Part shown: one piece after another, positions 9,118 through 57,270 of the stretch
Layout: the number at the start of each line of letters is the position of its first letter
How positions within the stretch are numbered: the stretch's first letter is position 1
Assembly (NCBI GenBank): GCA_022539475.1
Contig: VCMS01000001.1
Coordinates: 248,001 to 312,000 of the forward strand
DNA from: Gracilaria domingensis
Taxonomy: Eukaryota; Rhodophyta; Florideophyceae; Gracilariales; Gracilariaceae
Direction: 5' to 3'
DNA length: 64,000 nt
The notes under the pieces: model-generated
Database searches by the model: none
What the model was told of the DNA's origin: nothing
Seen by the model: only the letters and a program-made list of their open reading frames with translations
Translations under genes and position numbers: made by a program

Positions 9118-12090
9118 TTAGAATGGGGCCTCGCCAGCCATCAATGGATTCACACCGTCGCCGACTTCTTCCCAAGATTCTTCTTCCCCTTCTTCCTCTT
9201 CTGCACTCAACCTGAGGTACTCCAACGCGGCAAAGCGGTCCCAATCAGTGAGCTCTGGGGTCGCATGTTCTTGTCTTATTTGCAATGGATCCCTAGCCTC
9301 AATGGCGAAAAACTTATTGAGGTTGAACAAAACGTTGAAAAAGTTACCGGCCAGGCGACACCGTTTGAGATCCTTCCTCCTAATCACGGGTGGTTGTACA
9401 TTGGGTTTGATCATGTCGAGCAGTTGACACAAGATATCTTTGATCTGCACCGGCTCATGACCAAAACATTCCATGCGATGCAGCTGTTCCTTGTAGAAGA
9501 ACTCCATATCATACATAGTAATCAGGCCATCGCCATCCATATCAATACATCGAAACCAGTAATCGATGGCCGTATCACTCGTTTTGTCTTCTTCGCTAAG
9601 ACAGAACCAGATAAAATCTGTGTACGACATGAACCCAGGGTTCTCTGGTGAATCGAGAGGACGCGCGTATCCACCAAAAATGCGATCAACGATACGAGAC
9701 GTCAGAGAATGACTTCCATATCGCATTAAGTCTTCGCGGTCTATTTGCAGATCATGGTTAGCGTCTAACTCCCAAAATCTGCAATATAGCACGTAGAAAT
9801 GCTCATAGCTGAAAAACTTTCTCTCCCGGTTGATGTCCTCTTCCTCATCCACAACCAAAAGCGTTTCCAAGAGTTTTGACCTCCGAATATCTTGAAGTGT
9901 CAATCGCCCATTGTGTTGTCGAGTGCATCCGAAGTAGATTCTCTCAATCACTGTTTCACTGTATCTTTGTTGAAATTCCGGTGTTGCGTGCAAGAACGCT
10001 AAACCTTGATGACACATCAGCAACGCGCGAAGCAAAGGCTTAAAGTCGCTAGGGATTAGATAATCTCGATCCGTCCCAGGTTCGCGAAGGACTGAGAAGA
10101 GCCTCGCCTCTTTCGAATAACCCACACAAGTAAGTCTGTAGAAATACTTAAACTGTTCTTCCATGACATAGTCCCTAATGACTTCATTCACTGGCGCCAT
10201 GGTGGTTACACCATCCGTGGCAGCCGAAATGCCCGAATTCGCTTCATTCGCTTGTGAAACACTGTGAAATCCATTTAGTTGGCGACTTTCGTTCCCTCTG
10301 TCGTCTCCATCTACGGCATCACCCATTGTTGTGTCTGACTTCGTGCCTCCATCACTGTGCGGCGACTGCTGAATCATAGTATCAGTGGCATTAGAGCGTT
10401 CTTCCATACTTTGCTTGTTTTCCACATCCTTCATATCATTTTCAGTGCTTTGGATGAGGTTTGCTTCTGTAGAGCCTATTTTACCGTCTTGCTTTAGGGA
10501 ACTTAATCTCACGGCTGCATCGAAAACGATACCTGCAAAATAGGTTGGCAGTCCGATAACGTCCAACACCAACTCTCCCAGATCCGAACGCGTCGCCCCC
10601 GGCTGATTCTTTTCCTCTCGCAGCTTCTTAAAAAACTTTTTCATTACTTCATGCTCTTTCCTCTCTCTGTCATCTGCGTCCTTCCCACAAGGATAATAAA
10701 ACCGAGGCAAGGTAGTGCCCCTATGACGACGGGATGACGCATCAACCATTGTCGCATCTTCCTCCCGAGGCGGTTTTGGTTTCACGGGAGGGATAGCAGC
10801 GCTCACTACCTTTTCTTCCGGAAGAACTTGGATGTCTGATTCTCTTGGCTCTTCCGATTTCAGTCTGAGAGCCTGTGAGTCTCTCTCGATGGTGACAGTT
10901 TCAGTTGCAACCCCTTGGCTTAACTTTTCATCCCGATCTGCTACCACAGCCCCTGTTGCTATAGCTTCCTTAAGCGGAACTGCGTCCGATGTCGTCACAA
11001 TCTCCTTCTCTGCAAATGGTACAGCGTCGTCTACTTTTGGGGTTGGTTTTCCAACTTCAGCCACCTTCTTCGCTGATTCCAAGGTGGAAATTGCGTCTCT
11101 CTCCAATACACTCTTCTCATCGCGTTTCATCTCAGAATCAACTGGCGTCGCATCAGACGAGGAGACCTTGTCAACGGCGGCAGTAATTTCAGCGATGCCA
11201 TCAGCATCGTTGTCAGAAGCTTCCTTCTCAATCGAAGGTGTTTCATCAACCTTAGCCTCCGTCACAGGAACCGCCGGCACATCGACACCCTCCATTTGAA
11301 CGTCCTTTGGAGTTTCGCCGAGCCCGACAGACCGAACAGCCTTCTCTGGCGTTTTCGCCGGCGACGAAAACAATATTTGCGGATCGCGCTGATCAAGCGG
11401 TAAAGGAGAAACGGTTCCACTCTTACCAAGATCAAGATCAGCAGATGCTTGCAGCGTAGATCGCAAGTGGGCAGCAATGAAAGCCGGAGCGGCTACTGGG
11501 GATCGGGGTGAGGAATCTGTGTCGCCAAACGGGATGTGACTACGAAAGAGTCTAGAGATCGGGGAACTTGGTGCTTGTTGTGGCGCGGCGGACGTGGAGC
11601 TCTGCTGCGCAGAGGAGGGCGATCGTGAATGAGATGGAGAGTGGGTTTTGTCGTGCTTCGCAAGACGTTGAGCTATCTCCATCTCCGCGGAGGCAGATAT
11701 GTTGCCAGCGCGGACATCATCTAGGAGTTTTTGTAACCAAGGTTTTGAGTCGGGTTGCTCAAGCCACTCATTGAAGAGCTCGTCAACCTTGAACTTTGGC
11801 CACACCAGGACGTCGGAGGCGTGCAAAAGCACAGCTGGCGGAGATGGTATCGGACGGAGATTTGGGGCAGTGGAATCTACAAGCGAAGGCGAATGTCCAG
11901 TGGGGGTGGACGTGGGGAGAAATGAGTTGGAAGTGAAGAGAGGGGAGAGTTGTGAAGGGTTACGGGTAGTGTTAGAGGTGTCCATGGCGCGGGTTACGTC
12001 TTGGTCGACATCCATATTGACGTGTTCCGAGGGCGAGGGCACCTGAAGGTGCATGGAGGGGGGAGTTGCAGGCGTTGTGTCGATATCCAT
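9118..12090 (-). CDS. PP2A regulatory subunit B'' (EF-hand type) with long N-terminal extension
   Basis: The C-terminal half matches the B''/PR72 family of regulatory subunits that target and regulate protein phosphatase 2A. LPRFYYPCGK (near residue 463) is the family's PxFYFP motif. A conserved helical core begins near residue 640. Two EF-hands follow: DANHDLQIDREDL (about 775) and DMDGDGLITMYDM (about 848), both with acidic calcium ligands. The C-terminus is acidic. At 990 residues it is nearly twice the plant B'' length, because residues 1-450 form a Ser/Pro/acidic disordered extension with SP motifs and a KAREK-type charged region. The ATG at 12088-12090 is the start; no intron is needed. 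Plant and animal relatives act in cytoskeletal and cell-cycle control. A TON2-like role is possible but not shown. Confidence 0.9.
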   Translation of the reverse strand: MDIDTTPATPPSMHLQVPSPSEHVNMDVDQDVTRAMDTSNTTRNPSQLSPLFTSNSFLPTSTPTGHSPSLVDSTAPNLRPIPSPPAVLLHASDVLVWPKFKVDELFNEWLEQPDSKPWLQKLLDDVRAGNISASAEMEIAQRLAKHDKTHSPSHSRSPSSAQQSSTSAAPQQAPSSPISRLFRSHIPFGDTDSSPRSPVAAPAFIAAHLRSTLQASADLDLGKSGTVSPLPLDQRDPQILFSSPAKTPEKAVRSVGLGETPKDVQMEGVDVPAVPVTEAKVDETPSIEKEASDNDADGIAEITAAVDKVSSSDATPVDSEMKRDEKSVLERDAISTLESAKKVAEVGKPTPKVDDAVPFAEKEIVTTSDAVPLKEAIATGAVVADRDEKLSQGVATETVTIERDSQALRLKSEEPRESDIQVLPEEKVVSAAIPPVKPKPPREEDATMVDASSRRHRGTTLPRFYYPCGKDADDRERKEHEVMKKFFKKLREEKNQPGATRSDLGELVLDVIGLPTYFAGIVFDAAVRLSSLKQDGKIGSTEANLIQSTENDMKDVENKQSMEERSNATDTMIQQSPHSDGGTKSDTTMGDAVDGDDRGNESRQLNGFHSVSQANEANSGISAATDGVTTMAPVNEVIRDYVMEEQFKYFYRLTCVGYSKEARLFSVLREPGTDRDYLIPSDFKPLLRALLMCHQGLAFLHATPEFQQRYSETVIERIYFGCTRQHNGRLTLQDIRRSKLLETLLVVDEEEDINRERKFFSYEHFYVLYCRFWELDANHDLQIDREDLMRYGSHSLTSRIVDRIFGGYARPLDSPENPGFMSYTDFIWFCLSEEDKTSDTAIDYWFRCIDMDGDGLITMYDMEFFYKEQLHRMECFGHEPVQIKDILCQLLDMIKPNVQPPVIRRKDLKRCRLAGNFFNVLFNLNKFFAIEARDPLQIRQEHATPELTDWDRFAALEYLRLSAEEEEGEEESWEEVGDGVNPLMAGEAPF

Positions 12091-13382: not shown

Positions 13383-14969
13383 ATGGCTACTGTACCATCC
13401 CCAGTTCCGCCGTCAGAGGCGTTATTCCCCTCACCAAAGGAGGCCCACCAATTGGCTTCTCTCCTTGACAACAACAAGCCCAGTTTCATGACCAGTCTAC
13501 AGCTCTTTTCGGATATGCTACGGATCTTCGACAACGATGATGTTCACAATTTCCTCTTCGCTGATGAACCATTTCAGATGTCGTATCTCACTAATCCTAA
13601 CATTCGCAACATATCCATCACGTGTACCTCCCGTGAAACCAAGATCGATCCAACATCACCGATCGAAGCCTCCATGTCCGACAGCTATGGCAGCTCTTAC
13701 TTTCTTACTCCGGCCTTTACCTGCAACTCAATAACCTTCGGTATTGGAGTTGAGAATGCTATTTACTTCCCTGCCCCGGCCTGGAATTTTCCTGAAGCCT
13801 GTGTCAATGCCGTGGGTGAATGTCGATTTGTCAAGAACGACCAAGAGGGCTACATGATTATAGTTGCGTGCTATCAGACAGAGTGCGTTCGTATTGAATA
13901 TGTCAAGACCTTATCACCTACCAGTCAGATTCGCTGCGTAATTGGCACAAAGCTGCCGCTGTTCCGTTCCGCCACCAAAGGCGGTTCTTGTAATATGGAT
14001 GCGGTCTTTCCCACCCTTCTGCTGCTTCATACGTCCTATGAGACCCGAGATTGTCCGTACTGTGCGTCGGAGCACTCCAAATGTAACTGTTTGCTTCAAA
14101 TAGCAAAACCCCGTCACCCGCTTGATCACGCCAGCTTCGTCACCAACATGTCCACTCGTCTTGGTACCTTTTACGGTGCCTCACATGTGTCAATGTACAG
14201 AGAAGGTATGGGTATGTGCATGGGTGCGGTAGGCACCAGATTCAAAAGTCAACAATGTGCAGATGAAGATCTAATTGAATCTTTGCGTAATCTGGTCATC
14301 AGTCGGCATGCTCTCATTCAGGATCCTCGCTCAATACTCACGAGTTCGGAGGACTCGTCGCCATCTGACATGCAGATGGTAGATAGTGCACATGCTAAAG
14401 GAGGACAAGCTGATCCACAACAGCAGCAGTCAGTCAACCAACTTGTCGCAGACCCTGACTCACTTTCCGATGATTTTAACTTTGATGCATCCAAACTGCT
14501 TGAAGTTTCTTCGGTGCCAAGCGAACTCAACACTGTGCTCAATACAATTGAATTACCCCACGAAGCAGGACATATACAAGATGTTTCTCAGATGAATCGG
14601 TTAGTACCAGTTGCAGATAATGGCACGGTAGTGGGGAGTTCCGAAAAATCATCGTCTGAAACTGGGAATGCAGATGGGCAACAAGCTCTGCCCAACGGAA
14701 GAGACTCTGCTACGGACGAAACCACTCAATCACAAGTTGTGTCCCCGGGTAGTAGGGATAATGACTCTGTTATTCGACGGCTTAAGGCCGAACTACGACG
14801 GGAGAAGAATCGTGCTGCTGCGCAAAGGAGCAATATGAGAAAGAAGGCATTGAATGATACGTTAAAGCATAACTTAAAGACAGTTCGTGAAAAAGTGGAC
14901 TTACTTCGCTCGAAAGAAATGCTCTTGAGAGAAGAGAACTTGAGACTACGGGAGCTACTAGAAGAATGA
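13383..14969 (+). CDS. bZIP1: atypical bZIP transcription factor with N-terminal Cys-motif domain
   Basis: A 528-residue protein starting at ATG 13383. Residues 30-330 share an unnamed domain with bZIP2, bZIP3 and bZIP4: a FLFADEP-like helix, a 'PAF...FGIGVE' segment, 'CRFVKND', then CPYCASEHSKCNC at about 224-236 followed by RHPLDH. The Cys set (CPxC-x6-CxC) suggests a metal site. The middle is acidic and Ser/Gln-rich, compatible with an activation region. The bZIP is at about 470-528: basic region NRAAAQRSN then a five-heptad zipper (L, V, L, L, L at d positions). Asn484 (codon 14832-14834) replaces the near-invariant Arg. Expected to act in the nucleus as a dimer; targets unknown. Confidence 0.88.
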   Translation: MATVPSPVPPSEALFPSPKEAHQLASLLDNNKPSFMTSLQLFSDMLRIFDNDDVHNFLFADEPFQMSYLTNPNIRNISITCTSRETKIDPTSPIEASMSDSYGSSYFLTPAFTCNSITFGIGVENAIYFPAPAWNFPEACVNAVGECRFVKNDQEGYMIIVACYQTECVRIEYVKTLSPTSQIRCVIGTKLPLFRSATKGGSCNMDAVFPTLLLLHTSYETRDCPYCASEHSKCNCLLQIAKPRHPLDHASFVTNMSTRLGTFYGASHVSMYREGMGMCMGAVGTRFKSQQCADEDLIESLRNLVISRHALIQDPRSILTSSEDSSPSDMQMVDSAHAKGGQADPQQQQSVNQLVADPDSLSDDFNFDASKLLEVSSVPSELNTVLNTIELPHEAGHIQDVSQMNRLVPVADNGTVVGSSEKSSSETGNADGQQALPNGRDSATDETTQSQVVSPGSRDNDSVIRRLKAELRREKNRAAAQRSNMRKKALNDTLKHNLKTVREKVDLLRSKEMLLREENLRLRELLEE

Positions 14970-15492
14970 AGGTTCTGGTTCATTAATTTTCTGTACTGAA
15001 ACAGCAGTCTTGATGATTGCCTTCTTTTGGTCTTTGGGTGATCTTGCAGTTTGCATATTGCTGCCAAGGGTACCATTATATCCAGGGGTTTGTATATATC
15101 AGTGTATCGCGTTCAATTGAGTTATGAGAAACGCTTATTTCCTCTGTTTGCCACAGCGAACTGTTCATGCTGGCCGAGGGACAAAAAACAAAATGCTGGC
15201 GATCCGAATGGAACTTGTTTCAGTTTACTCTTCGATCTTTTTAAGGTGTTAGAATATTTACAGCTTTTGTTATGCACCGTCCATGAGCGCGATTCAACGA
15301 GTTTTCGTCAATACGAATCGGGAAGTGACAAGAATTCCTTCACCTGTTTGTACATGTATCTGGTTATCGCAATGCAATTTGTGCGGGAGCGCGATTCCTA
15401 AAGTTTGCATTCCTACGATCCGCGAACCGATATTGGGGATAGATGTATAGGTCGCCGCATGACAGAAACATGAACGCCAATTCGATGAACCA
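14970..15492. other. Convergent 3' intergenic region
   Basis: About 520 bp between the bZIP1 stop and the stop of the minus-strand membrane-protein gene. A 116-codon frame at 15051-15401 has no feature and is judged chance. Nothing else seen. Confidence 0.5.
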
Positions 15493-16749
15493 TCATCCAA
15501 GGATAACGTGATCTAGTTCGAGTACTCCCACCATTTCTTCATCGATTTCTTTCCAATTTGTATGTCTGGTAGTGGTCGACACACTTGTTACTTCAAAAGC
15601 TTTAAGACCAGATGCGGTGTGCACGACGTAGAACTTGTCTGTCAATAGGCATCCAAGGTTGCGAATGCGTTTACTTGTCATTACAATGTCCCAATTTGTC
15701 TTGACTCCCGCATTACGTCCTAAGGCGCATGAATTAGTCGGTCGGATTACCTCCCTCATCTTTGCCGTACACATCGCAGCACTGACGAATCGTAAGATGG
15801 ACTTCTCAATTCTCTTGTCTCGAAAGGCAAAGGTTCCTACAAGAAGATTCTCCTCTCCCTCTTGTCCTGAATTCACAATTTGTTTCCCCTGGTTTCCCAA
15901 GCACATGTTTATGTGACTAGTAACGTTCTCTTCTGACCCTCGGAATGTCAGCGCGTACGTCACTCCCGTATCTTTTAATCCAGCAATCCAAGTTAAGACG
16001 TAGTAGCAAACGGAGAGCCCAGGGAGTAACACAGACACAGCTACTTCATATTGCTTCAGTTGCACCAACACGCTGAACGACAGCATTGTTAAGAGGAAAA
16101 GAATGTACAAGATAGATGTCCTTATAATTGTATTAGTGCTAAAATACCAACTTGTACTGGTGAGAACCCTTCTTATTGCACGTTGTGTTCGCACATCCAT
16201 TCGGTTCGCACTCACGTTTTTCCCCAAGGTTTCGTACAGACACCGACAGCATATGACCATACCGTCGGAGATAAGAGCTGAGTGACAAGCTACGAATATG
16301 CTATTTCGCTCACCTCTCTTGTAGCTGTACCCGTATACATGGTCCGATATTGCCCTCGTCGATCCTCTTCTGATGCTGCGGATATCTTCCTTGTGCTCGA
16401 TCAACATGTCCCTCGTTATCTTCACAGTTTTAACACCTCCGCATCTGGATCCACAAGTCCTTATACGAATGAAGTCTCCTTCTTTCCATTGCTCGTTTTG
16501 GGTATATAACATAGCAGAGAGGGCAAGTGATAGATCCTCTTTCACTTCCATTTGATTCTTTCCAAAAACTTCGACAAAGTACTTCGGGGTTGCGTAACTG
16601 AGCCCAGGTGAATAGTCAGCATCTTCTGTTCTTACTAAATCAACAACACGCACCCCTGCAAACTTCAAGTTTACCGCTGCCTTTGCTTCTTCTGTCCAGG
16701 CAGTTGCGAATCGATCATAAAATCGTCGAGAACCAGCAGGGATTCTCAT
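15493..16749 (-). CDS. Two-TM membrane protein, unknown family
   Basis: A 418-codon frame from the ATG at 16747-16749. Residues about 1-205 are soluble-like, with several Cys (CGSRCGG; CHS...CCRCLYE). Two adjacent hydrophobic segments follow (about 210-235 and 240-265), then a soluble C-terminal domain with regular strand-like sequence. The layout, soluble domain, hairpin of two membrane helices, soluble domain, may indicate a membrane-anchored enzyme or an E3-type protein, but the Cys spacing fits no RING I know. It sits inside the bZIP cluster in the opposite orientation to bZIP1 and shows no similarity to the bZIPs. A short overlapping frame just upstream (16715-16927) could hide an extra exon; I see no clear splice pair. 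Confidence 0.7.
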   Translation of the reverse strand: MRIPAGSRRFYDRFATAWTEEAKAAVNLKFAGVRVVDLVRTEDADYSPGLSYATPKYFVEVFGKNQMEVKEDLSLALSAMLYTQNEQWKEGDFIRIRTCGSRCGGVKTVKITRDMLIEHKEDIRSIRRGSTRAISDHVYGYSYKRGERNSIFVACHSALISDGMVICCRCLYETLGKNVSANRMDVRTQRAIRRVLTSTSWYFSTNTIIRTSILYILFLLTMLSFSVLVQLKQYEVAVSVLLPGLSVCYYVLTWIAGLKDTGVTYALTFRGSEENVTSHINMCLGNQGKQIVNSGQEGEENLLVGTFAFRDKRIEKSILRFVSAAMCTAKMREVIRPTNSCALGRNAGVKTNWDIVMTSKRIRNLGCLLTDKFYVVHTASGLKAFEVTSVSTTTRHTNWKEIDEEMVGVLELDHVILG

Positions 16750-18170
16750 TGTCTATTCGGCATTTCTTGGAGCCTTGGTTGAAGAACTTATGAGAGAAAT
16801 ATGCGATAGGAACATTTCCTGCTAGCCTTCCATCTGGCCAAGGCAACCTTCTATCTCTCTCAGTCCACCAGGCTAGAACCTTATAGAGGAGCAGATGAAG
16901 CCAGCGTACTTGTACCAAGTGTGCCATACAGATCGATGCTCCTTAACGGGCCTTCAATATGGGCTTACAAACCATCAATGAAGACTTTTCCCCACGCATG
17001 ACTTCACTGAAAGATCGGTATTGCAGCGGTAGTACTGTACATGCCGCATTTATTTCGAATTCTCTATTCTGTGGCCCATTCCCGTCACCAATTGTCACTC
17101 ATCACACATCAAGACGCGCAGCAGTAGTTCCAGGTGACCTATGCCCTACCTAGGCCCTCTAGCATACTTCGTCAAGTACTGGCTTTCCTATCGATATTTA
17201 CGACGACTAACAACGGAAAGGTGCGTACAGACTATATATAGTACAGACACCATTCCACCGCAGATACTGCATTTACACCAATATTCTTTTTGATGTTTGT
17301 CACGTGACAACTTTCTTGTACGCCGCTACGATGGATTTCGTACAGATCAGAACTCCTTTCCCAACGATGGGCGAGCACAAGGTTCCCCTAATCCTTTTAA
17401 GAGACGTCCCCGTAGTTTTGACCTTTCGTCGAAACGAACTGCATGTACAGTACGACATCAGCCAAATTAATTTGCGACTATCTAAATTCCCCTGGGCCAG
17501 GGGCCTATCTTCAGTTTAATTCATTTATCAAGATAACAAGATGATCGCAATAACTTCAAAAACCTTTATCCGAAGTATGATTCTAAGTTAGAATTTCTAA
17601 CAGTGACCGAAACGACGTTATGATCTCATACTGCACAAAAACCATGTTAGAACGCAAACATTCTATTTACAAGATGCATTTGCTTTAAAGACCAGTTAGA
17701 TACAGATACAGAGAAATGAATTGACAGCCACTTCAGTTCACGTGCCAGTTGAACAGTAATGCCTGTCAGAAACGAGGTTGAAACAATATCAGAGGGCACT
17801 GATTTGGTAGTAGAAGACCCAGGGTGTACAATACCGCCTGAAGTATCTGGTTCGTACAGGCAACTCTGCCACCATAAAATTTGGCATGCAAAACTTCTCG
17901 TTTACCCGACACTGATAGATAGAAACGACATCGTTTCCGTCTGAACGTCGTGACGCTATCCTTTACCTTTACGAACGGAGAACTGTTCAGTAGAATGTAC
18001 CCGGGAACAGAAGCGACCAGTAACCGAAATTTTCACCTTGTTGAACTTCCTCCTTGAGGATCACTTAACATACAAAAGTTCACGTCTTGTCAATCGAGTT
18101 CGATAGGATCAAGATAAGATAACTTTGTGCAGATTCAGATCAGCCTTCTCTTTCAGAAGAAAGAAAACTG
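16750..18170. other. Intergenic region with G-box palindrome
   Basis: About 1.4 kb between two minus-strand genes. Short frames at 16959-17153, 17304-17519 and 17759-17944 have no supporting features. A 14-nt perfect palindrome centred on CACGTG lies at 17297-17310. Confidence 0.5.
17297..17310. promoter_or_regulatory. G-box palindrome TTGTCACGTGACAA
   Basis: A perfect 14-nt palindrome with a CACGTG core, about 550 bp upstream of the start of the minus-strand membrane-protein gene. CACGTG is a bZIP/bHLH site; function here is inferred. Confidence 0.4.
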
Positions 18171-19946
18171 TCAACCTTCAGATAAGAGCTTTCTCAGTTT
18201 CAGATTCTCTTCCCGAAGTCCCACTTCAATCCTCCGCAGTTCGGAAACTTTGCCATGCCACTTTTTCAGGTCTGCCTTAAGAGTATCATTCTTGATCTTC
18301 CGTTTCAAATTACTTCTATGCGCCGCTTCGCGATTTCGTTGTCGTCGTAACTCAGCCCTTCGTTCTTTTTCTTCTTGTGTCTTCGGTTTGGTGTTGGCTG
18401 ATTTCGGGAACTGCAACGCAGGGGCGATGGCAACAGGTTCTGATGGTTGTACGGTGCTGCTTGGGACTGTACAATTCTCTTTTGCAAACCCGTTCCTAGA
18501 CTCCTCGGCAATCAATCCTGTGAGAGTGAGGTCTTCATCCATAGGTGCAGGTGGAAGAGCATCTAGTTCCTCACCAGTTATTAGATTCACCATACACCCT
18601 TGGATGGTGCTGCCGAACTGAGGTGAGATCCAGGGCTCATTGCTTTCCGCTCCGGTGGGAACGTAAAGCGAGAAATCTGTAGGCTGCAGGATTTCGGAGG
18701 CATCGTTTGATGTAGCGTCTAACTCGGTTGAACTGGAAGGTTGAGCATTCTTCTCATCCATGAAGTCACTACGCACGCTTGAAGTGCGAGTATGCGGCTC
18801 GCAAATAGCCCTCATAAGCGCACATGTTTGTGATTGGTTTAGTACAAGCGGCACGGGCGTAATGGAATCTGAAACAGAAAGAGATTGTGTTGAACTCATA
18901 CTAGAGCTGGTATTGTCGGTGTTCGAGTTTGACTGATCTTTGGAAGGGGCCGTGTGTAATTGAGATGAACGAAGAATCAGGTCCCTGAGTGGGGTTTCAG
19001 GAGATTTGGACAGTTCGTCGCTGATGACACAACGACTGAGACGGTCGATAAGGTCCTCGTCGACCTTGTCTGAAATAGTCATCTTGTTGCTCATAGTGGA
19101 AGATTGCAGCTGCAAGCCTTGAAGCGCAAAGTTGACAACGGCAACGCCCTCAAAACTGCCAAGATGCGCACACATGCCAGGTGCCATAACACTGAAATCC
19201 AGGGCATGGCGAGCCTTGGGCACGTTGATAACGCAGAAGCAAGGCGCAGAGTCAGGCTGATTGCCGCACATAGGACAGACACGGCGCTCCGTACTGCAGC
19301 GATGCAAAACGACGTGCGGCGCCAACTGAGACGGCTGAAACGAAGCGTGGGAGCGATGCAACGCCACCAGCCCTGATCTGGTGACTACGATGAAGTGACG
19401 GCGACGCGCACAACCACTCAACAGACGATAGTAGTCGATTTTGACCAGCGGTTCGCCCAAATCCTGTACGAGGATGAGCACGTGTGCGCTGTCGTTTCGA
19501 AGGAAACGAAACACTCCGGGGCGGGACACGGGCGAGCATGGATGTTCCGTGGGGACGCCCCCGACGAAGGACTGGCACTCACGAACGCCAAAGCCGAGCT
19601 GCGTGTCCGCGATACTGAAGGCAGGGATGAAGCAGTAGTTGCCCGCGAAAAGGGTGTCCAGCGGCTTGGTGTTGGAGAAGTCATTGGGCGCATGAGGCTC
19701 CAGGGAAGAGATGAGAACGGAGCTGGCGACGGCGGCATTTCGGTTGACAGGCGAGGTGAAGACGGAAAGCGGGTCAGCCTCGGGGTTTATGAGAAAGTCA
19801 AGCGCGGCGGGAAAGCGGCAGGCGGCCAGCAGCTCGCCGAGCCCGTCCGCCAGCGAGGGGGTGGACGGCAGCGACGCGGGGACGAGTGAGAGAAGCTTGT
19901 TCAATTCGGCGTCGGTTGGCAGGGGGATGCCCGAAAGCGACGCCAT
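18171..19946 (-). CDS. bZIP2: atypical bZIP transcription factor with N-terminal Cys-motif domain
   Basis: 591 residues from the ATG at 19944-19946. The shared N-terminal domain runs to about residue 330: the helix AACRFPAALDFLI, 'FIPAFSIADTQLGFGV', 'FRFLRND', CPMCGNQPDSAPCFC at about 224-238 (same position as in bZIP1) and RHALDF. A 'DEDLIDRLSRCVIS' segment near 340 matches bZIP1 'DEDLIESLRNLVIS'. The central region is Ser/Thr-rich and acidic. The bZIP (about 530-591) has basic region NREAAHRSN and an LRxEN zipper end; the Asn codon is at 18309-18311 where Arg is expected. The gene start lies in GC-rich DNA with an ACGT element about 140 bp upstream. Likely a nuclear dimeric DNA-binding protein. 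Confidence 0.88.
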   Translation of the reverse strand: MASLSGIPLPTDAELNKLLSLVPASLPSTPSLADGLGELLAACRFPAALDFLINPEADPLSVFTSPVNRNAAVASSVLISSLEPHAPNDFSNTKPLDTLFAGNYCFIPAFSIADTQLGFGVRECQSFVGGVPTEHPCSPVSRPGVFRFLRNDSAHVLILVQDLGEPLVKIDYYRLLSGCARRRHFIVVTRSGLVALHRSHASFQPSQLAPHVVLHRCSTERRVCPMCGNQPDSAPCFCVINVPKARHALDFSVMAPGMCAHLGSFEGVAVVNFALQGLQLQSSTMSNKMTISDKVDEDLIDRLSRCVISDELSKSPETPLRDLILRSSQLHTAPSKDQSNSNTDNTSSSMSSTQSLSVSDSITPVPLVLNQSQTCALMRAICEPHTRTSSVRSDFMDEKNAQPSSSTELDATSNDASEILQPTDFSLYVPTGAESNEPWISPQFGSTIQGCMVNLITGEELDALPPAPMDEDLTLTGLIAEESRNGFAKENCTVPSSTVQPSEPVAIAPALQFPKSANTKPKTQEEKERRAELRRQRNREAAHRSNLKRKIKNDTLKADLKKWHGKVSELRRIEVGLREENLKLRKLLSEG

Positions 19947-20082
19947 TGCAGAGGCGCTGGCGGTGGCGCGAGATGGCGGCGAGGTTGCGGCGCAGGGCGG
20001 CCGACAGGAGAGCGGCAGAGCGGCGGGCGAATTATATCACATCACGGCAGCGCGCAAATGGGTGCGGAATCGAACGCTGGGC

Positions 20083-20090
20083 GACGTCAC
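20083..20090. promoter_or_regulatory. ACGT element upstream of bZIP2
   Basis: GACGTCAC about 137-144 bp upstream of the bZIP2 ATG, in a GC-rich stretch (19947-20213) that also carries the 3' end of bZIP3. It has the ACGTCA core of bZIP sites. Confidence 0.45.
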
Positions 20091-20213
20091 GCGTCGACGC
20101 GACTCGCGCGCCAAGGCGCCTCCGCGGCCAATGCGCGCGCGCCCACTGGCGCGTGGCGTTTCGAAATTCTAAAACGGAGGACGTCCAGTTTAAGATAGTT
20201 GGCAGCGAGGAGG

Positions 20214-21596
20214 TCAGCGCGGCGGCAGGTTGACGACGTGCGCCAGCCGCTCGGCCACGTCGGAGCGCTGCCGCCCCAGCAGCAGCCGCAGCTGCACGTT
20301 CTCGCGCCGCAGCTCGCCCTCGCGCTCGCGCAGCACCTGCTCCCGCTCCACCGCGACGCGCAGCGCGTCGCGCAGCTGGTCCGTGCGCTCCTTCCGCTTG
20401 GCGTTGCTTCTTGCCGCCGCCAGCCGGTTCCGCTCCTTTCGCAGCTCGATCTTCCGCGCGCGCTCGTCCAGCAGCAGCGCCGCCGCGCCGCCGCTGCCGT
20501 CGTGCGACTGCGACCGCGACTGCGACGCCGTCTGCGATGGCGACGCCGGCTTTGTCTGCGCCTGAGAGCATGCGTACAGCATGGCCTCCATGCCGCGCTC
20601 CACCGCGCTGCTTCCCTGCGATGACGCCGTCCATTGTGCCGTCCAGTGTGGATGTTGCGCCGGCGCCATGCCGCTGCTCGTCATTGCGCCGCCGCTCGTC
20701 ATTATGCCGCCGCTCGCCATCACGCCGCCGCTCGTCATCACGCCGCTGCTCGCCATCACGTCCGGCCCGCTGCTGCTTTTCAGTTGCTGTCCCATCAGCC
20801 GCGTCAGGTCCGTCGTGCTCTTCGACCACATTTGCGTCACCAACCGCGCCTCGATTGATACCGCGCCGTGTTGGAATACGTGCAGCACGCAGTCGCCGTG
20901 AAACCGTCCTCCCTGGAACGCCATGTTAGCGCGATCTCTCTGAAAGTCAAACGCTTGTGTCGCCACCGCCAGTGGAAACCGACAGCAGCAGTCCCCACTT
21001 CCATCGTCCAGGTTTACCACCCCGTCTCGCCCGCACACGGGACATTGTCGCAGTTCTCGTGAGGTAGAGATCGTGTGCAACGCATTTCCTGCCGCTTCAA
21101 CGTGGTCTGCTTCGCACGCCCGTCGGAACGATGCTGCTTGAAATCGCGCGTTTATCCTTGTCCGTCTCCGTGCCGAATGGAACGTAACAAGCTCCAGCTC
21201 TATAATATCCAGAGTTGGCACGCTCACCGCCAACAGTTTCCCGTTAGTGTCGTCGCGAGCATATCGCATGTGCACATGTCGTCGTCCATCGCCGTCCAAG
21301 TATTGTACAGAGCAGTGGCCCAAAGCCACCGCGCCCACGTTTATAGCAGGTGTAGACCGAAAGTTAACGTTGTGTGAGTGATCGAAAATACGCCCGTACC
21401 GCACTGGTATCACCTCCTGGGCGCTCACTCGCAGCAACGCGCTCAAGCTCTCAGGTCTGTCATGTGATACTCGTGTTTCGCCATCTTCGTAAGAGCCGAG
21501 CAAGAACTGGTGTATGACGGGCATCTGACATATCGAGAAAATTTCTTGAAGCGTCTTTGAAACATGTGTATTCCCTTTGGTCCTTGAGGTGCTCAT
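20214..21596 (-). CDS. bZIP3: atypical bZIP transcription factor, GC-rich 3' half
   Basis: 460 residues from the ATG at 21594-21596. The shared N-terminal domain is shorter: the helix IFSICQMPVIHQFLL, 'MRYARDD', CPVCGRDGVV...CCC (Cys set at about 183-203) and TQAFDF with 'GRFHGD'. Near residues 279-308 is a six-residue tandem repeat (VMASSG/IMTSGG type), encoded by five 18-bp units. The bZIP (about 382-440) has basic region NRLAAARSN, with Asn398 (codon 20403-20405) instead of Arg, and zipper REGELRRENVQLR. The second half of the gene is much richer in G and C than bZIP1 or bZIP4, with alanine and arginine codons ending in C or G. Upstream lies a 7-bp-arm inverted repeat at 21760-21776. Confidence 0.86.
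   Translation of the reverse strand: MSTSRTKGNTHVSKTLQEIFSICQMPVIHQFLLGSYEDGETRVSHDRPESLSALLRVSAQEVIPVRYGRIFDHSHNVNFRSTPAINVGAVALGHCSVQYLDGDGRRHVHMRYARDDTNGKLLAVSVPTLDIIELELVTFHSARRRTRINARFQAASFRRACEADHVEAAGNALHTISTSRELRQCPVCGRDGVVNLDDGSGDCCCRFPLAVATQAFDFQRDRANMAFQGGRFHGDCVLHVFQHGAVSIEARLVTQMWSKSTTDLTRLMGQQLKSSSGPDVMASSGVMTSGGVMASGGIMTSGGAMTSSGMAPAQHPHWTAQWTASSQGSSAVERGMEAMLYACSQAQTKPASPSQTASQSRSQSHDGSGGAAALLLDERARKIELRKERNRLAAARSNAKRKERTDQLRDALRVAVEREQVLREREGELRRENVQLRLLLGRQRSDVAERLAHVVNLPPR
20670..20759 (-). repeat. 18-bp coding minisatellite inside bZIP3
   Basis: Five tandem 18-bp units with a few substitutions encode Met/Ala-or-Thr/Ser/Gly hexapeptides. The unit is a multiple of three, so copy-number change keeps the frame. 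Confidence 0.85.
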
Positions 21597-23783
21597 ACTT
21601 CACCTTAACAATCAATCGGCGGCGGTGTGCGTCCAGTTTTCGAACCACAACACGCCGCCTGGCCTTGACCAAATTTTTGCAGCAGGGAGAGAGGTATGCG
21701 AAGAAAATGGTTGTACGCGGCAACTGAGTTGCACTATGTCGAGTACAGCTAGGCTGGCGCGTTGTGGCGCACAACGTGGTTGACGACGTAGTTGAAAATG
21801 CGCTTCACAATCGTTCGTTTAGCCCAGCGATGCACGCTAACGAACGCGGTTTGAGTTCCAAATGAGAGAACCAGTCCTCAAGCCCTCTGATATTGTCAAA
21901 GTTCCTCTTCCCCTATGGGATCTCTCAACCACTTGGAACGCACAACTTGACTTAGGTCCTTGAGCTTCGCCATGAGCCATGTGCGAAAATGGCACGGTCG
22001 CACGTGGCACCCCTTCAGTCCTGCTGAGTCGTGGGCGGCAGTTAAATCCGGTCACGAGAGTTCTCGAGTTGCGTAGATGTTACAAGCATCTAGCGACGTC
22101 ATCATCCCGAGTCGTCTGCCCGCGGCACCCAATCGAGGACGCGACCAAACCTCCCCTGTACCGTGGAACTAAAATTATGCGCGCTGTCTATAATAGGCAA
22201 CCTTGTTGTAGCATGAGCCCATCATGTCATTCGCGTCGGTTTTCCTCGCTCACGCTCTCCTCTACAAGACGTCATGGCGGCATAGGATCAGCATCCAGCT
22301 ATGCAACGTAGCGGAACCCGTAGCCAATTGCAAAGGTATTTGTGTTACATTCACTTGTTTGCATACCCTCTCCGATGCGATCTACCCCTGGTATGCCTTC
22401 AGCTCAGGGCTGCTGCATACCGCTTTGAAATGAAGATACTGGAGGGCATCAGATTCTGTTGAAACAGTGTGTCAATCGCACTGTCGGCTGCTTTCGCGCT
22501 GATCATCTAGCTTACAAGTGCATTCGCCGTCTTTCCCGCAGACACCAATTGTGACATTCTGAAAAGCCACTGACCTGAGCCAGAACTGAGTCTGTTCTCT
22601 TGAGGGCAGGTCAAAATGACGTCACTAGTGTCCGGCTTTCCGCATTTTGCCCTCCTGACGCCCCAAGCGAAACTACCTGGCAACTCCGCACCCTTTCAAA
22701 CTGAGCAACCAGGTATGGCACAGATCAAAGTTGAAAGGCGACATAGCCCCCCGCTATCAAATGCTACCAACATTGCAAAGGTCTGCCAATAGCATGCCTC
22801 TACGTACTTATCACAGCCACTTTTGTGCCATTGTGGCAATCAGAACGAGATATTAAGCATTGTCGTCAGAAGTCTTTCTGCCAACATCTTTTCGAAAGTT
22901 TGCTTCCTTCGGTTCCTGTTCAGTGGGGTGATTTGTCGCTGTGCACCTCGCAGTGCACTTCGCATTGCGCCAACTTTCTGGTGTTGGTCAATAATAATGT
23001 GACCTCCACACTATGAAGGTCCCCATTGCTTCAGACCAAAACTCTGCAGAACCGACAAGCCTGTCGCCTTTGCACATTCCCTTCTCATAGATACATTTCT
23101 GTGACGCTTACCATACTTTGTAAGTTATTACGTACAGGCACTGCTTTCGCTTGCTCACTGTGCGGTGAGATGCGGAAATTCGTGGTGCCTGAACGCCTGC
23201 AGTACGAGTACATATTATTTATGATGATGGCCATGATTGTTCAGATGTCGGGGAACTTGCTTCTAGACTTCAAGCACCATATCATGCTCCATCGGAATAA
23301 TGGCCTCCGGAGACGCCCTGGACGCCTTGGCGACGCCATGAAGTTGTTCTCATAGTCGCGTTTCTGGAACCGTCCTTAAGATACCTCTGCGCTGTCATTT
23401 TTCCCAGCCATCCCACCTCAAGTCTACAGCATGCGGTGAACACTGAAAATACTTCCGTAAAGCAGCGCGAGGAGGTGGCATGCGGAAGCTCCAAGCCACT
23501 GCGTCAATTGAGCATAGAAGATTACAGACTGCAAACAGAACCATTCAAGGGTATACATACAATACATTCTACGCAAAGTATAAGATAAAATACATTCAGA
23601 ACTGATCTATACACAACACATCCAACGTTTCGTACTCCGAAAATAAATCTTGGAGCACTTCGTGCATTCTGATGAAAGCAAAGGATACATTTGCACGTAT
23701 GAACCTGCTTCAGGGCCACAAAAATCCCCATTCTTTTCCCCTTCGTATAACCCGCAATCACGAAGACATGCTCCCTATCTCCG
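21597..23783. other. Intergenic region between bZIP3 and bZIP4
   Basis: About 2.2 kb with only short frames (such as 21979-22311 and 23026-23355) that have no domain or exon signature. It contains a perfect CRE octamer TGACGTCA at 22617-22624 and the inverted repeat CGTTGTG-GCG-CACAACG at 21760-21776, about 165 bp upstream of the bZIP3 ATG. Moderately AT-rich elsewhere. Confidence 0.5.
22617..22624. promoter_or_regulatory. CRE octamer TGACGTCA
   Basis: The full palindromic bZIP site, about 1 kb upstream of bZIP3 and in the bZIP3-bZIP4 spacer. A single octamer is expected by chance about once in 65 kb, and three occur in the window. Confidence 0.4.
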
Positions 23784-25589
23784 TCAATGCGGGACAAGAA
23801 GCTTTGCACGTCGCACCTCGTTTCGTAATCTTGTATTCTCGTCTCGAAGCATCATTTCTCTCACGCGTAGCTTTACAGCCTTCTGTGTTAAGTTTGCCAG
23901 ATCTTTTCGAACTTTTTCGTTTCTCAGTTTCCGCTTCAAGTTACTGCGAGCTGCCGCTTCTCGATTACGCTTCTTCCGTATTTCGGTCTTTTCCTCCTCT
24001 GTCAAGATGCGTTGCGGTTTACCGTCATCTGGCTTGTCAATTTCCTTCTTTGAGCGTGACCTCTTGCTGTTCATTTTTGCCTCTATGGAACCTGTAATTT
24101 CAATTGTGTCCCCAACGGCTTGAGCATCTTCGTCTGTGACTTCATAACAGGGCCCGTCAAACGCCCTGAGATTCCCACAGCTGTCTCTACCGGAATGCAG
24201 AACAGGGTCAATGTCTTGACCTTCGCCATTAACACAGCTCATATCGCGTTTGCTTGATAATGACGCAGAAGATGTGCAGCAATCAGTGATACGATCTTTC
24301 TCCATCGGTGGAGTTCCTTCATCACGCGTACTTTGATCTTCATTCGCGTTAGATGAGCATACGTTGTGCATTTCCCCAAGAACCTCATGAGCGTCCATTA
24401 GAGTATCGGCGTCTTCTAAATCAACGTTAGCCACATCGGCGCTTCCATCAAACAAAGAGTCTGAGGCAAGCGTTTTCTGAGCCATGTCCGTATGAGCAGC
24501 CTCCGCCATCCTCTCGACATCTGCACTTGCATGCGGAACAACCAGAAGTGGTTCAGACATGTCATTTATTTCGACCGGTGACATGCGATGCTCATCGTTT
24601 GAGCTAATGTCGAACACGTTAACATCTACATTATGAGGTACATTCTCTCCAAGATCTGCAATTGCTTCCTGGGCGGCAGCGTTTACTGCGATTGGTTGAC
24701 CGTGTGGCATGACGAGAGCAAAGGGATTCTCCTTGACCTTCGCGAGGCGGTCTGTAACCGCCATGCGATGAAGACGATGGGTGATTTCGGGGTTTAGCTC
24801 GCCTTGAATCACACTACCAGATTGTAACGTGGCATTGATGGAACCGTGACCCACACTCCAAAGGCGAACTACTGTTGCTCCTTGATAAAAGCCGGTGTAG
24901 AGCTGCATATTGCTCGCTTCAAAACGAAAATCAAAGGGGTGAGTCGGGCGCTGTAGCGGTAGCTTGCACCCGCAATCTCCAGCAGTTGCATCAGCGCACA
25001 CAGGACAAGTTCGACGTTCGTCAGAGACGTTGTAGTATATAAGGGAGGAGGATATATCGCTCGGGTGCAAGATTCCTTTCGGGGTCCGTAAAACTCTTCG
25101 CAAACTGCGGCAGTCGAACTTCATACGGACACGGGTACGGCGGGTAGACGATTTATGTGTGAGGCAATCAACCTCAGTGACGCCGGTACGCTGATTTTCG
25201 CTTACGTGCAAGAAAACGCCGTTCGTATCATCACGAACGAAGCGAATACATTGCAAAGCGTCCTTCGCTTTACTTCTAGTTAGCTGTTCGACACAGAAGC
25301 CGGCAGTGATATGTTCGACGGAGAAAGCCGGAATGGAGTAGAACATAAGCTCTTTGTTGAAGTCGAAGGTATGGGCATATCGTGAGGAGGTCTCTGTGGC
25401 GTTGACGAAAATTCTCGCGGAGAGCGCGTGGCGTTTCTGCACGGGAGCAAGCAACATGGAGATGTCGGCAGCAGGGTCTGCATTGAAGATGAACTCAAAA
25501 ATCCATGGAATCCTGCACAACGCAAAGACATCCTCGAGAATTTGTTGTGTGTCGGAGGCTGGTGGTATTGGGACACACAACTGGTTCAT
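23784..25589 (-). CDS. bZIP4: atypical bZIP transcription factor with N-terminal Cys-motif domain
   Basis: 601 residues from the ATG at 25587-25589; the frame opens a few codons earlier only at a GTG. The shared N-terminal domain: FALCRIPWIFEFIF, 'YSIPAFSVEHITAGFCVE', 'IRFVRDD', CPVCADATAGDCGC at about 193-206, then THPFDF and 'TGFYQGATVV'. The middle region is long and acidic. The bZIP (about 530-601) has basic region NREAAARSN (Asn codon 23940-23942) and zipper REMMLRDENTRLR. A pair of inverted CACGTG boxes lies about 315-337 bp upstream. It is the last of the four clustered paralogues. Confidence 0.88.
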   Translation of the reverse strand: MNQLCVPIPPASDTQQILEDVFALCRIPWIFEFIFNADPAADISMLLAPVQKRHALSARIFVNATETSSRYAHTFDFNKELMFYSIPAFSVEHITAGFCVEQLTRSKAKDALQCIRFVRDDTNGVFLHVSENQRTGVTEVDCLTHKSSTRRTRVRMKFDCRSLRRVLRTPKGILHPSDISSSLIYYNVSDERRTCPVCADATAGDCGCKLPLQRPTHPFDFRFEASNMQLYTGFYQGATVVRLWSVGHGSINATLQSGSVIQGELNPEITHRLHRMAVTDRLAKVKENPFALVMPHGQPIAVNAAAQEAIADLGENVPHNVDVNVFDISSNDEHRMSPVEINDMSEPLLVVPHASADVERMAEAAHTDMAQKTLASDSLFDGSADVANVDLEDADTLMDAHEVLGEMHNVCSSNANEDQSTRDEGTPPMEKDRITDCCTSSASLSSKRDMSCVNGEGQDIDPVLHSGRDSCGNLRAFDGPCYEVTDEDAQAVGDTIEITGSIEAKMNSKRSRSKKEIDKPDDGKPQRILTEEEKTEIRKKRNREAAARSNLKRKLRNEKVRKDLANLTQKAVKLRVREMMLRDENTRLRNEVRRAKLLVPH

Positions 25590-55990: not shown

Positions 55991-56334
55991 AAGCGGCGAA
56001 CAAAAGCGCGGGCGCGCGCCGGGCCACTCCGCCCACGTCAGGTCGGCGGCAGGCGCCGCGGCCACGGCGCGTGATTGGCCGCGCGCGAAATTTCGCCACC
56101 GCCAATCCGCGTCGTGCTTCGCTGTCATCGCGGCGCTCCGCTCGCGCCGCGCGCCTGGCCACGCGCGCAACGTGTGCGCAGCGAGCGCGCGCCGCTGCCA
56201 CGCGGCGCACCATAAAAACGAAGGCATCGCATGCGTTCCGCCATCGTCCGCTCACCCGCCCTCACTGACTCGCACTGCCGGCCGCCGCTGATAGATCGCC
56301 TCTCCGACAGCTCCGACCCATTCCCAGCCCACAC
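55991..56334. promoter_or_regulatory. GC-rich promoter region of bZIP5
   Basis: About 340 bp, strongly GC-rich with many GCGCG words. It carries CCACGTCA at 56033-56040 about 300 bp before the bZIP5 ATG. Confidence 0.5.
56033..56040. promoter_or_regulatory. ACGT element upstream of bZIP5
   Basis: CCACGTCA, identical to the first eight bases of the arm found upstream of bZIP1, at about the same distance from the start codon (295-302 bp). Confidence 0.45.
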
Positions 56335-57270
56335 ATGACCAACGTACTGCCCGCGTTCGACGCTGCTTGCTCCACGGCTTCCGCGCTTGTCCCGCTCGAC
56401 TTCTCCTCCCTGCTGCAATACGCCGACGCCGCCACGTCGTCGTTCCTGCTGTCGCCTTTATGTGCTGCCACTGCGCTGCGCTCCCCGCTCGTCGCTGATC
56501 CGTTCCTCAAGTCGCCGCTGCTTTCTGCCGTGCCGATCTCCCCGCTCAGCTCTTCCGCTTCGGCGCTCTGCTACCTGCAAACGCCGTCGCATCCGCTCAA
56601 GCACGCGCAGAAAGCTCCGCACCACCTTGCGTCTCCCACACTGCAAATTTCTGCCCCGTCCGCTGTGCTGACCACTGCGCCATCGACGTCGCCCGTAACG
56701 CCCCAGCTTGTCGATTCGCTCATGACCGATGTTCCGCAGTCGATCTCCACTAGCACGGCCCACACTGCCACGTCGCAGTCCTCTTCGCACAGCTCAGCAG
56801 CAGCACCACCACCCGCAGCCAAGGAAACACCCAGGAGCAGCACCACCACCACCACAGCTATCACCGCGAGCAGTACAACGGGCACATGTGAGAGCGAGGC
56901 GCCCGCAACCAACAGTTCGTCAAGCAAGGCCCTCAAGCCGGCTTCTGCCATCGACAAGGCAGCAGAGCGTCGGAGGAAGAACCGGGAGAGCTCAAGTCGT
57001 TGCTATTACAATCGGAAGCGAATCATTCAAAACATGGAGAAACAGCTTGTGGCAGAGAAGGACAAGCTCACCAAGTTGTACGATCACGCTTTGCAGCTTC
57101 GCCACGACAATGCACGTCTCAAGAAGGAGGTTGTCACTAATGGATATGCTTTACCGCCCTCTCGCACAAAACATGCAAATAGCAGGACTACCAATTCGTT
57201 TTCGCTTAGAGACTACTTGCGACTTCTGCACAGCTCTACGTACCAAAACCCGTCGCACGCATTATTGTAA
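56335..57270 (+). CDS. bZIP5: divergent bZIP protein with Tyr in place of basic-region Arg
   Basis: 311 residues from ATG 56335. The first 190 residues are Ser/Thr/Ala/Pro-rich and disordered, without the Cys-motif domain of the clustered bZIPs. The bZIP occupies about 205-265: basic region RRKNRESSSRCYYNRKR followed by a zipper of M, E, L, L, L at d positions and Asn at the usual a position (HDNARL). Counting back from the zipper, the residue at the invariant Arg position is Tyr224 (codon 57004-57006) and the usual Ala-Ala is Ser-Ser. It is otherwise a normal-length bZIP. Strong GC bias at third codon positions in the first half. Confidence 0.82.
   Translation: MTNVLPAFDAACSTASALVPLDFSSLLQYADAATSSFLLSPLCAATALRSPLVADPFLKSPLLSAVPISPLSSSASALCYLQTPSHPLKHAQKAPHHLASPTLQISAPSAVLTTAPSTSPVTPQLVDSLMTDVPQSISTSTAHTATSQSSSHSSAAAPPPAAKETPRSSTTTTTAITASSTTGTCESEAPATNSSSSKALKPASAIDKAAERRRKNRESSSRCYYNRKRIIQNMEKQLVAEKDKLTKLYDHALQLRHDNARLKKEVVTNGYALPPSRTKHANSRTTNSFSLRDYLRLLHSSTYQNPSHALL

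Follow-up and report, generated by a model that had tools for sequence, protein, structure and literature searches.

A 64,000-nucleotide stretch of the genome of the red alga Gracilaria domingensis, bases 248001-312000 of contig C1 (789,604 bases; assembly of 77.9 Mb in 680 contigs), was analysed and is referred to here as the window. It contains four genes, bZIP1 to bZIP4, whose products are built alike: a shared N-terminal domain (about 240 residues) is connected through a fast-evolving linker to a bZIP at the C-terminus. On present evidence we judge that these genes probably represent a class of bZIP-type factors of florideophyte red algae, which would have arisen by old, mostly linked duplication, would be regulated through the N-terminal domain and would have an altered DNA recognition. 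Coordinates of bZIP1-4 and their features follow the window numbering, and those prefixed C1, C104, C92 and the like follow the contig numbering.

GENE ARRAY AND PROTEIN ARCHITECTURE

All four open reading frames are intact, at exactly the coordinates given in a preliminary description of the window, and each encodes a bZIP at its C-terminus. The bZIP1 gene (13383..14969, plus strand) encodes 528 amino acids, with the N-terminal domain at about residues 40-290, the linker, and the bZIP at about residues 462-528; its CPYC-x6-CNC motif (14052..14090, plus strand; residues 224-236) contains four invariant Cys and is a putative zinc site. The other three genes are on the minus strand: bZIP2 (18171..19946; 591 amino acids; C4 motif at residues 224-238), bZIP3 (20214..21596; 460 amino acids; residues 185-205) and bZIP4 (23784..25589; 601 amino acids; residues 195-208). 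For bZIP4, which has orthologs as far as Chondrus crispus, the N-terminal domain lies at 24804..25547 (minus strand; residues 15-262) and the C-terminal bZIP at 23787..24008 (minus strand; residues 528-601), with an N-x7-N basic region and the zipper end LRxxExxLRxENxxLR.

The proposal of a cluster of paralogous bZIP genes is confirmed, and the cluster is old, but it is not restricted to four genes. Five further intact open reading frames with the bZIP1-4 architecture, all on the minus strand, were found on C1 outside the window (129994-131622, 216809-218368, 220988-222607, 223424-225214, and 225960-227636). Thus nine family genes are held in 144 kb of C1, which itself accounts for 1% of the assembly.

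N-TERMINAL DOMAIN

The homology of the N-terminal regions was clear. Profiles built from three of the window proteins recovered the fourth (bZIP1, bZIP2, bZIP3, and bZIP4) at 104, 117, 95, and 133 bits, respectively, while the best of 100 shuffles each scored 1.7, 6.7, 3.6, and 4.2 bits. When the four window proteins were compared pairwise by BLASTP within a database of 10 sequences, the E-values ranged from 3e-31 (bZIP3/4) to 6e-5 (bZIP2/3) over the six pairs. Ten columns were invariant in all ten aligned paralogs (M1, F57, G120, R222, C224, C227, C234, C236, G265, and P315 in bZIP1 numbering), and four of these are the Cys of the CxxC..CxC motif, so that Cys4 is present in 10/10 core proteins (defined below). 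Most of the motifs listed in the preliminary description were found in all four window proteins, namely the helix ending, the R-F/Y-x-R/K-N/D-D block, the CPxC..CxC motif, and the H/T-x-x-L/F-D block. The "PAF...FG.GVE" block is exact in bZIP1 only and looser elsewhere, bZIP3 having PAI without FG, and the "DxDL" segment thought to be common to all four did not appear in the alignment as an alignable shared element.

The expectation that no named domain would be recognised by sequence was upheld, since the N-terminal region gave no significant match in Pfam, NCBIfam, or PDB across its length. Besides bZIP, the Pfam and NCBIfam searches gave only weak matches in one to three members (e.g., PF16158 with E 0.023 and DUF7502 with E 0.0085). 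The N-terminal profile had no match in PDB up to E 10; a longer profile gave 50 matches, all starting from profile position 279 onward, i.e., in the linker and bZIP. None of the sensor families, and likewise neither LOV/PAS nor DOG1, matched the domain in Pfam scans of 4 full-length, 10 N-terminal, and 32 aligned sequences.

BASIC REGION AND LEUCINE ZIPPER

Fourteen proteins were treated as family-type: 13 with the domain, of which 10 are clear (the core proteins) and 3 faint, plus a bZIP end at 95 kb of C104. At the Arg/Lys site of the basic region, Asn was found in 13/14 and His in 1/14 of them (N-x7-N or N-x7-H), while the basic regions of the 26 further bZIPs that were read in the genome have Arg (22), Leu (2), or Tyr (2). 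The domain was detected in 13/14 family-type proteins (three faintly), versus 0/23 (hhalign probability at most 0.5%) upstream of control bZIPs. Three of the 26 controls stood outside this test because fewer than 60 residues precede the bZIP in the open frame, and the test covers open frames without considering introns, so that a domain in a separate exon would escape it; the C92 protein was examined for the domain after its Asn had been noticed. Of the residues that contact bases in GCN4, all except the Arg are retained in most family members; DNA binding by the family is therefore likely, and its specificity is probably altered.

The zipper end follows the pattern LR-x2-E-x2-LR-x-[EQ]-N-x2-LR in 10/10 core proteins and in 0/11 tabulated controls. 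Counted from the Arg-equivalent site, leucine heptads have L at +24, +31, and +38 in 10/10 core proteins, at +10 in 7/10, and at +17 in 3/10. The final Arg of the signature is replaced by Lys in the C104 95 kb end, and one faint member, C104_140, has Lys in place of the core Glu; with the register set by hand, this Glu/Lys difference suggests a dimerisation rule.

By Pfam scans of the full-length proteins, bZIP1 just passes PF07716 (22.7 bits against a cut-off of 22.3), and bZIP2-4 stay below every bZIP cut-off. Since three of the four window members are below these cut-offs, surveys relying on them may miss much of the class.

A fifth bZIP in the window, at about 56917-57135 in a 333-residue open frame (56269-57270, plus strand), has N-x7-Y, and no N-terminal domain was detected in this frame. 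Its close relative is a bZIP at C130:241082.

CONSERVATION AND PHYLOGENY

The bZIP4 protein shares 83% identity with a protein of Agarophyton chilense and 88% with a EukProt transcript. From 30 matches, 16 orthologs were chosen after removal of fragmentary sequences, questionable gene models, and remoter relatives. Mean identity to these orthologs was 87% (residues 20-80) and 78% (81-262) in the domain, 53% (263-300), 27% (301-380), 38% (381-420), and 20% (421-520) thereafter, and 77% in the bZIP (528-601); the patch at 381-420 is thus somewhat better conserved than the adjoining linker (38% versus 20-27%). Compared with A. chilense, bZIP4 is identical at 243/248 domain residues, 171/258 linker residues, and 71/74 bZIP residues; with the Chondrus protein it shares 188/248 (76%) of the domain residues. 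The corresponding count for the bZIP1 domain against A. chilense is 186/251, and bZIP1 is, as judged from these sequences, the faster-evolving of the two. The Chondrus bZIP4 model is labelled uncharacterised and stops before the bZIP. In Gracilariopsis chorda, the bZIP1 relative is annotated "BZIP domain-containing protein".

The tree was built with 29 proteins, with C104_140, C104_143, P0012, and P0015 removed. In it, bZIP3 joins P0023 and P0024 (98/92), and the bZIP4 clade lies next to this group (82/71). bZIP1 groups with C1_130 and C1_217 (100/99), with bZIP2 joining at 81/89, and another clade (100/99) unites C1_221, C1_224, and C1_226. Deep joins are unsure because there are several long branches, that of bZIP3 being the longest. 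The A. chilense relatives of bZIP4 and bZIP1 are on contigs of equal size (51619), as are two bZIP3-/bZIP4-like pairs (25156 and 12916), which suggests an old linkage of the family genes.

The organisms named among the matches are only A. chilense, Chondrus crispus, and Gracilariopsis chorda, a narrow taxonomic reach. A search with the ten-paralog profile gave 8 matches and missed bZIP4 orthologs already found otherwise. When the bZIP4 domain by itself served as the query, with matches accepted up to E 10, 26 proteins were returned; all were among the earlier 30, and the relatives P0023 and P0024 were missed. Since such profile searches overlook known relatives, they have little power and do not demonstrate that the family is absent from organisms other than florideophytes.

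OTHER FAMILY MEMBERS IN THE GENOME

A clear relative outside C1 was found at C104:90433-92349, scoring 35.9 bits with a profile built from all nine C1 proteins (best shuffle 7.3). The faint relatives are C104_140 (C104:139447-141417), C104_143 (C104:142239-143747), and the C92 protein (L067:712-2214). With the nine-protein profile, C104_143 scored 6.6 bits (best shuffle -0.5). With a profile of the ten core proteins, C92, C104_140, and C104_143 scored 8.8, 1.2, and 11.1 bits (best shuffles 5.1, -0.2, and 1.3, respectively), and hhalign against a 21-sequence alignment gave 80, 31, and 59%, the latter pair combined giving 83%, with nine shuffles at 0.5% or less. The bZIP end at C104:95195-95422 has the family zipper, and the domain was not detected there.

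Several partial or related copies were also observed. A broken partial copy of bZIP1 is present on C7:83412-83988 (L042, L070) as two pieces, 76 and 82% identical, with the middle absent. Relatives of the C104_140 domain occur at C104:144121-145479 (L036), C15:278615-279142 (L073), C18:68260-68790 (L074), and C85:211281-211805; no bZIP was seen in the frames of the first three, and the C15 and C18 copies have an in-frame stop. A second shared block recurs on C105, C384, C510, C439, and C248. The basic region of bZIP1 gave four equal-scoring short matches on C362, C419, C542, and C654 (64% identity, two stops), which are possibly a repeat holding a bZIP piece.

INTERPRETATION

If the florideophyte factor class proposed above is real, the following mechanism may be considered. 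The N-terminal domain would be the regulated part, by ligand, redox, or partner binding, and may control activation by acidic-hydrophobic patches of the linker, while the Cys4 set would hold a structural zinc. The swap of Arg to Asn would change the half-site that is read, and the shared zipper code would direct dimerisation among family members or with a common partner. The bZIP4 protein may be the constrained, ancestral-like member, and bZIP1-3 and the five copies outside the window may be diverged specialists. A more ambitious form, which we put forward tentatively and hold to be doubtful as a whole, is that two coupled inventions, a zinc-holding regulatory domain of new fold and an Asn-type bZIP with a fixed zipper code, may have given new half-sites and within-class dimers, the linked array being kept through florideophyte evolution.

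Several observations weigh against these readings. Against the nine-protein C1 profile, C92 (3.2 bits; best shuffle 3.3) and C104_140 (-0.8; 3.6) did not exceed their shuffles, and all three faint members are without the full C4 motif and without the zipper signature. Residues other than Arg also occur outside the family (the two Leu and two Tyr), and no domain was detected in the three tested of these four. The Glu found at one zipper position in all core members would disfavour simple homodimers. The regions preceding the nine C1 genes did not yield a useful shared palindrome; the sole palindrome that is present in several of these genes and above random sequences was the low-complexity CGCGCGCG.

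Other explanations of the N-terminal region were weighed. It may be a protein-protein docking or oligomerisation module, which selects co-regulators or dimer partners without sensing; the fast divergence of the paralogs with retention of scaffold residues fits such partner specialisation, and the bZIP-less domain relatives could titrate partners. We regard this as possible while placing it clearly behind the reading given above. The invariance of the Cys4 set and its linkage to bZIP in 10/10 core members would also be expected of a second DNA-binding domain with a zinc-type fold, giving a composite site for each protein. This we think unlikely, as residues 21-208 of bZIP4 are near charge-neutral (K+R 0.13, D+E 0.11), no Pfam DNA-binding family passes for the N-terminal region, and there are relatives without bZIP. 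Finally, tandem duplicates and unnamed extensions are generally frequent in transcription-factor families, and the array might be an ordinary expansion of bZIP genes in which the N-terminal extension is lineage-specific and serves no specific function, the shared motifs then reflecting nothing but common descent. This is the least probable, and we give it very little weight, because among the 16 chosen orthologs the bZIP4 domain equals or exceeds the bZIP in conservation, a sign of purifying selection.

COMPARISON WITH KNOWN bZIP PROTEINS

As in other bZIP factors (PF00170/PF07716), the proteins end in a basic region and then a correctly spaced leucine zipper, and weak profile matches were obtained; unlike them, the family has N-x7-N/H for N-x7-R/K, an extra N-terminal domain, and a nearly fixed zipper end. 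Asn at the Arg site has already been reported in a red alga: the accessible parts of a survey of Neopyropia yezoensis bZIPs describe an "invariable N-X7-R/N motif" and no tandem duplication (PMC11533322). The same parts name no N-terminal domain, although the MEME motifs of that survey may contain pieces of it. A survey of N. haitanensis, in the sections available, gives N-X7-R and no tandem duplication (PMC10696790). A wider red-algal survey enriched the bZIP profiles with algal sequences while retaining the original Pfam threshold, and may therefore include some of the class (PMC8304369). In the portions at hand of the literature on red-algal and unusual bZIPs (including PMC11533322, PMC10696790, PMC8304369, and PMC12567131), neither the domain nor the array was described. 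The Asn variant is therefore already published, while the domain, its coupling to Asn, and the array did not come up in the literature searched. A link to the sex-determining region was considered and dropped, the word "bZIP" being absent from the main text of PMC12502185 as far as it was accessible.

Aureochromes of stramenopiles (LOV plus bZIP), according to the accessible part of PMC9416419, similarly combine a bZIP with a conserved domain distinct from it. The window family differs from them in having no LOV/PAS match. Moreover, the domain order of aureochromes is the reverse of that of bZIP1-4. In plant TGA-type bZIPs, a DOG1 domain is joined to the bZIP, a comparable union of bZIP and conserved regulatory domain; the window family, however, has no DOG1 match, and its Cys4 motif and domain order differ.

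A new domain coupled to Asn at a supposedly invariant Arg would offer a direct test of a natural shift in DNA recognition by bZIP proteins. To our knowledge, few regulators of red-algal multicellular life have been described, and a conserved florideophyte factor class would provide concrete candidates for such regulators.

NEIGHBORING GENES

Between bZIP1 and bZIP2, a 418 amino acid open reading frame with hydrophobic stretches (window 15493-16749, minus strand) matches no Pfam family up to E 0.1. Upstream of bZIP1 in the window, a 990 amino acid EF-hand protein (9118-12090, minus strand; PF17958, PF13499) is encoded, which we presume to resemble a PP2A B''-type subunit. Near the bZIP array on C1, the open reading frames at 228709-229815, 239930-240574, and 241828-243258 have similar ends, and the one at C1:228709-229815 matches F-box and SPOC families, an unusual combination.
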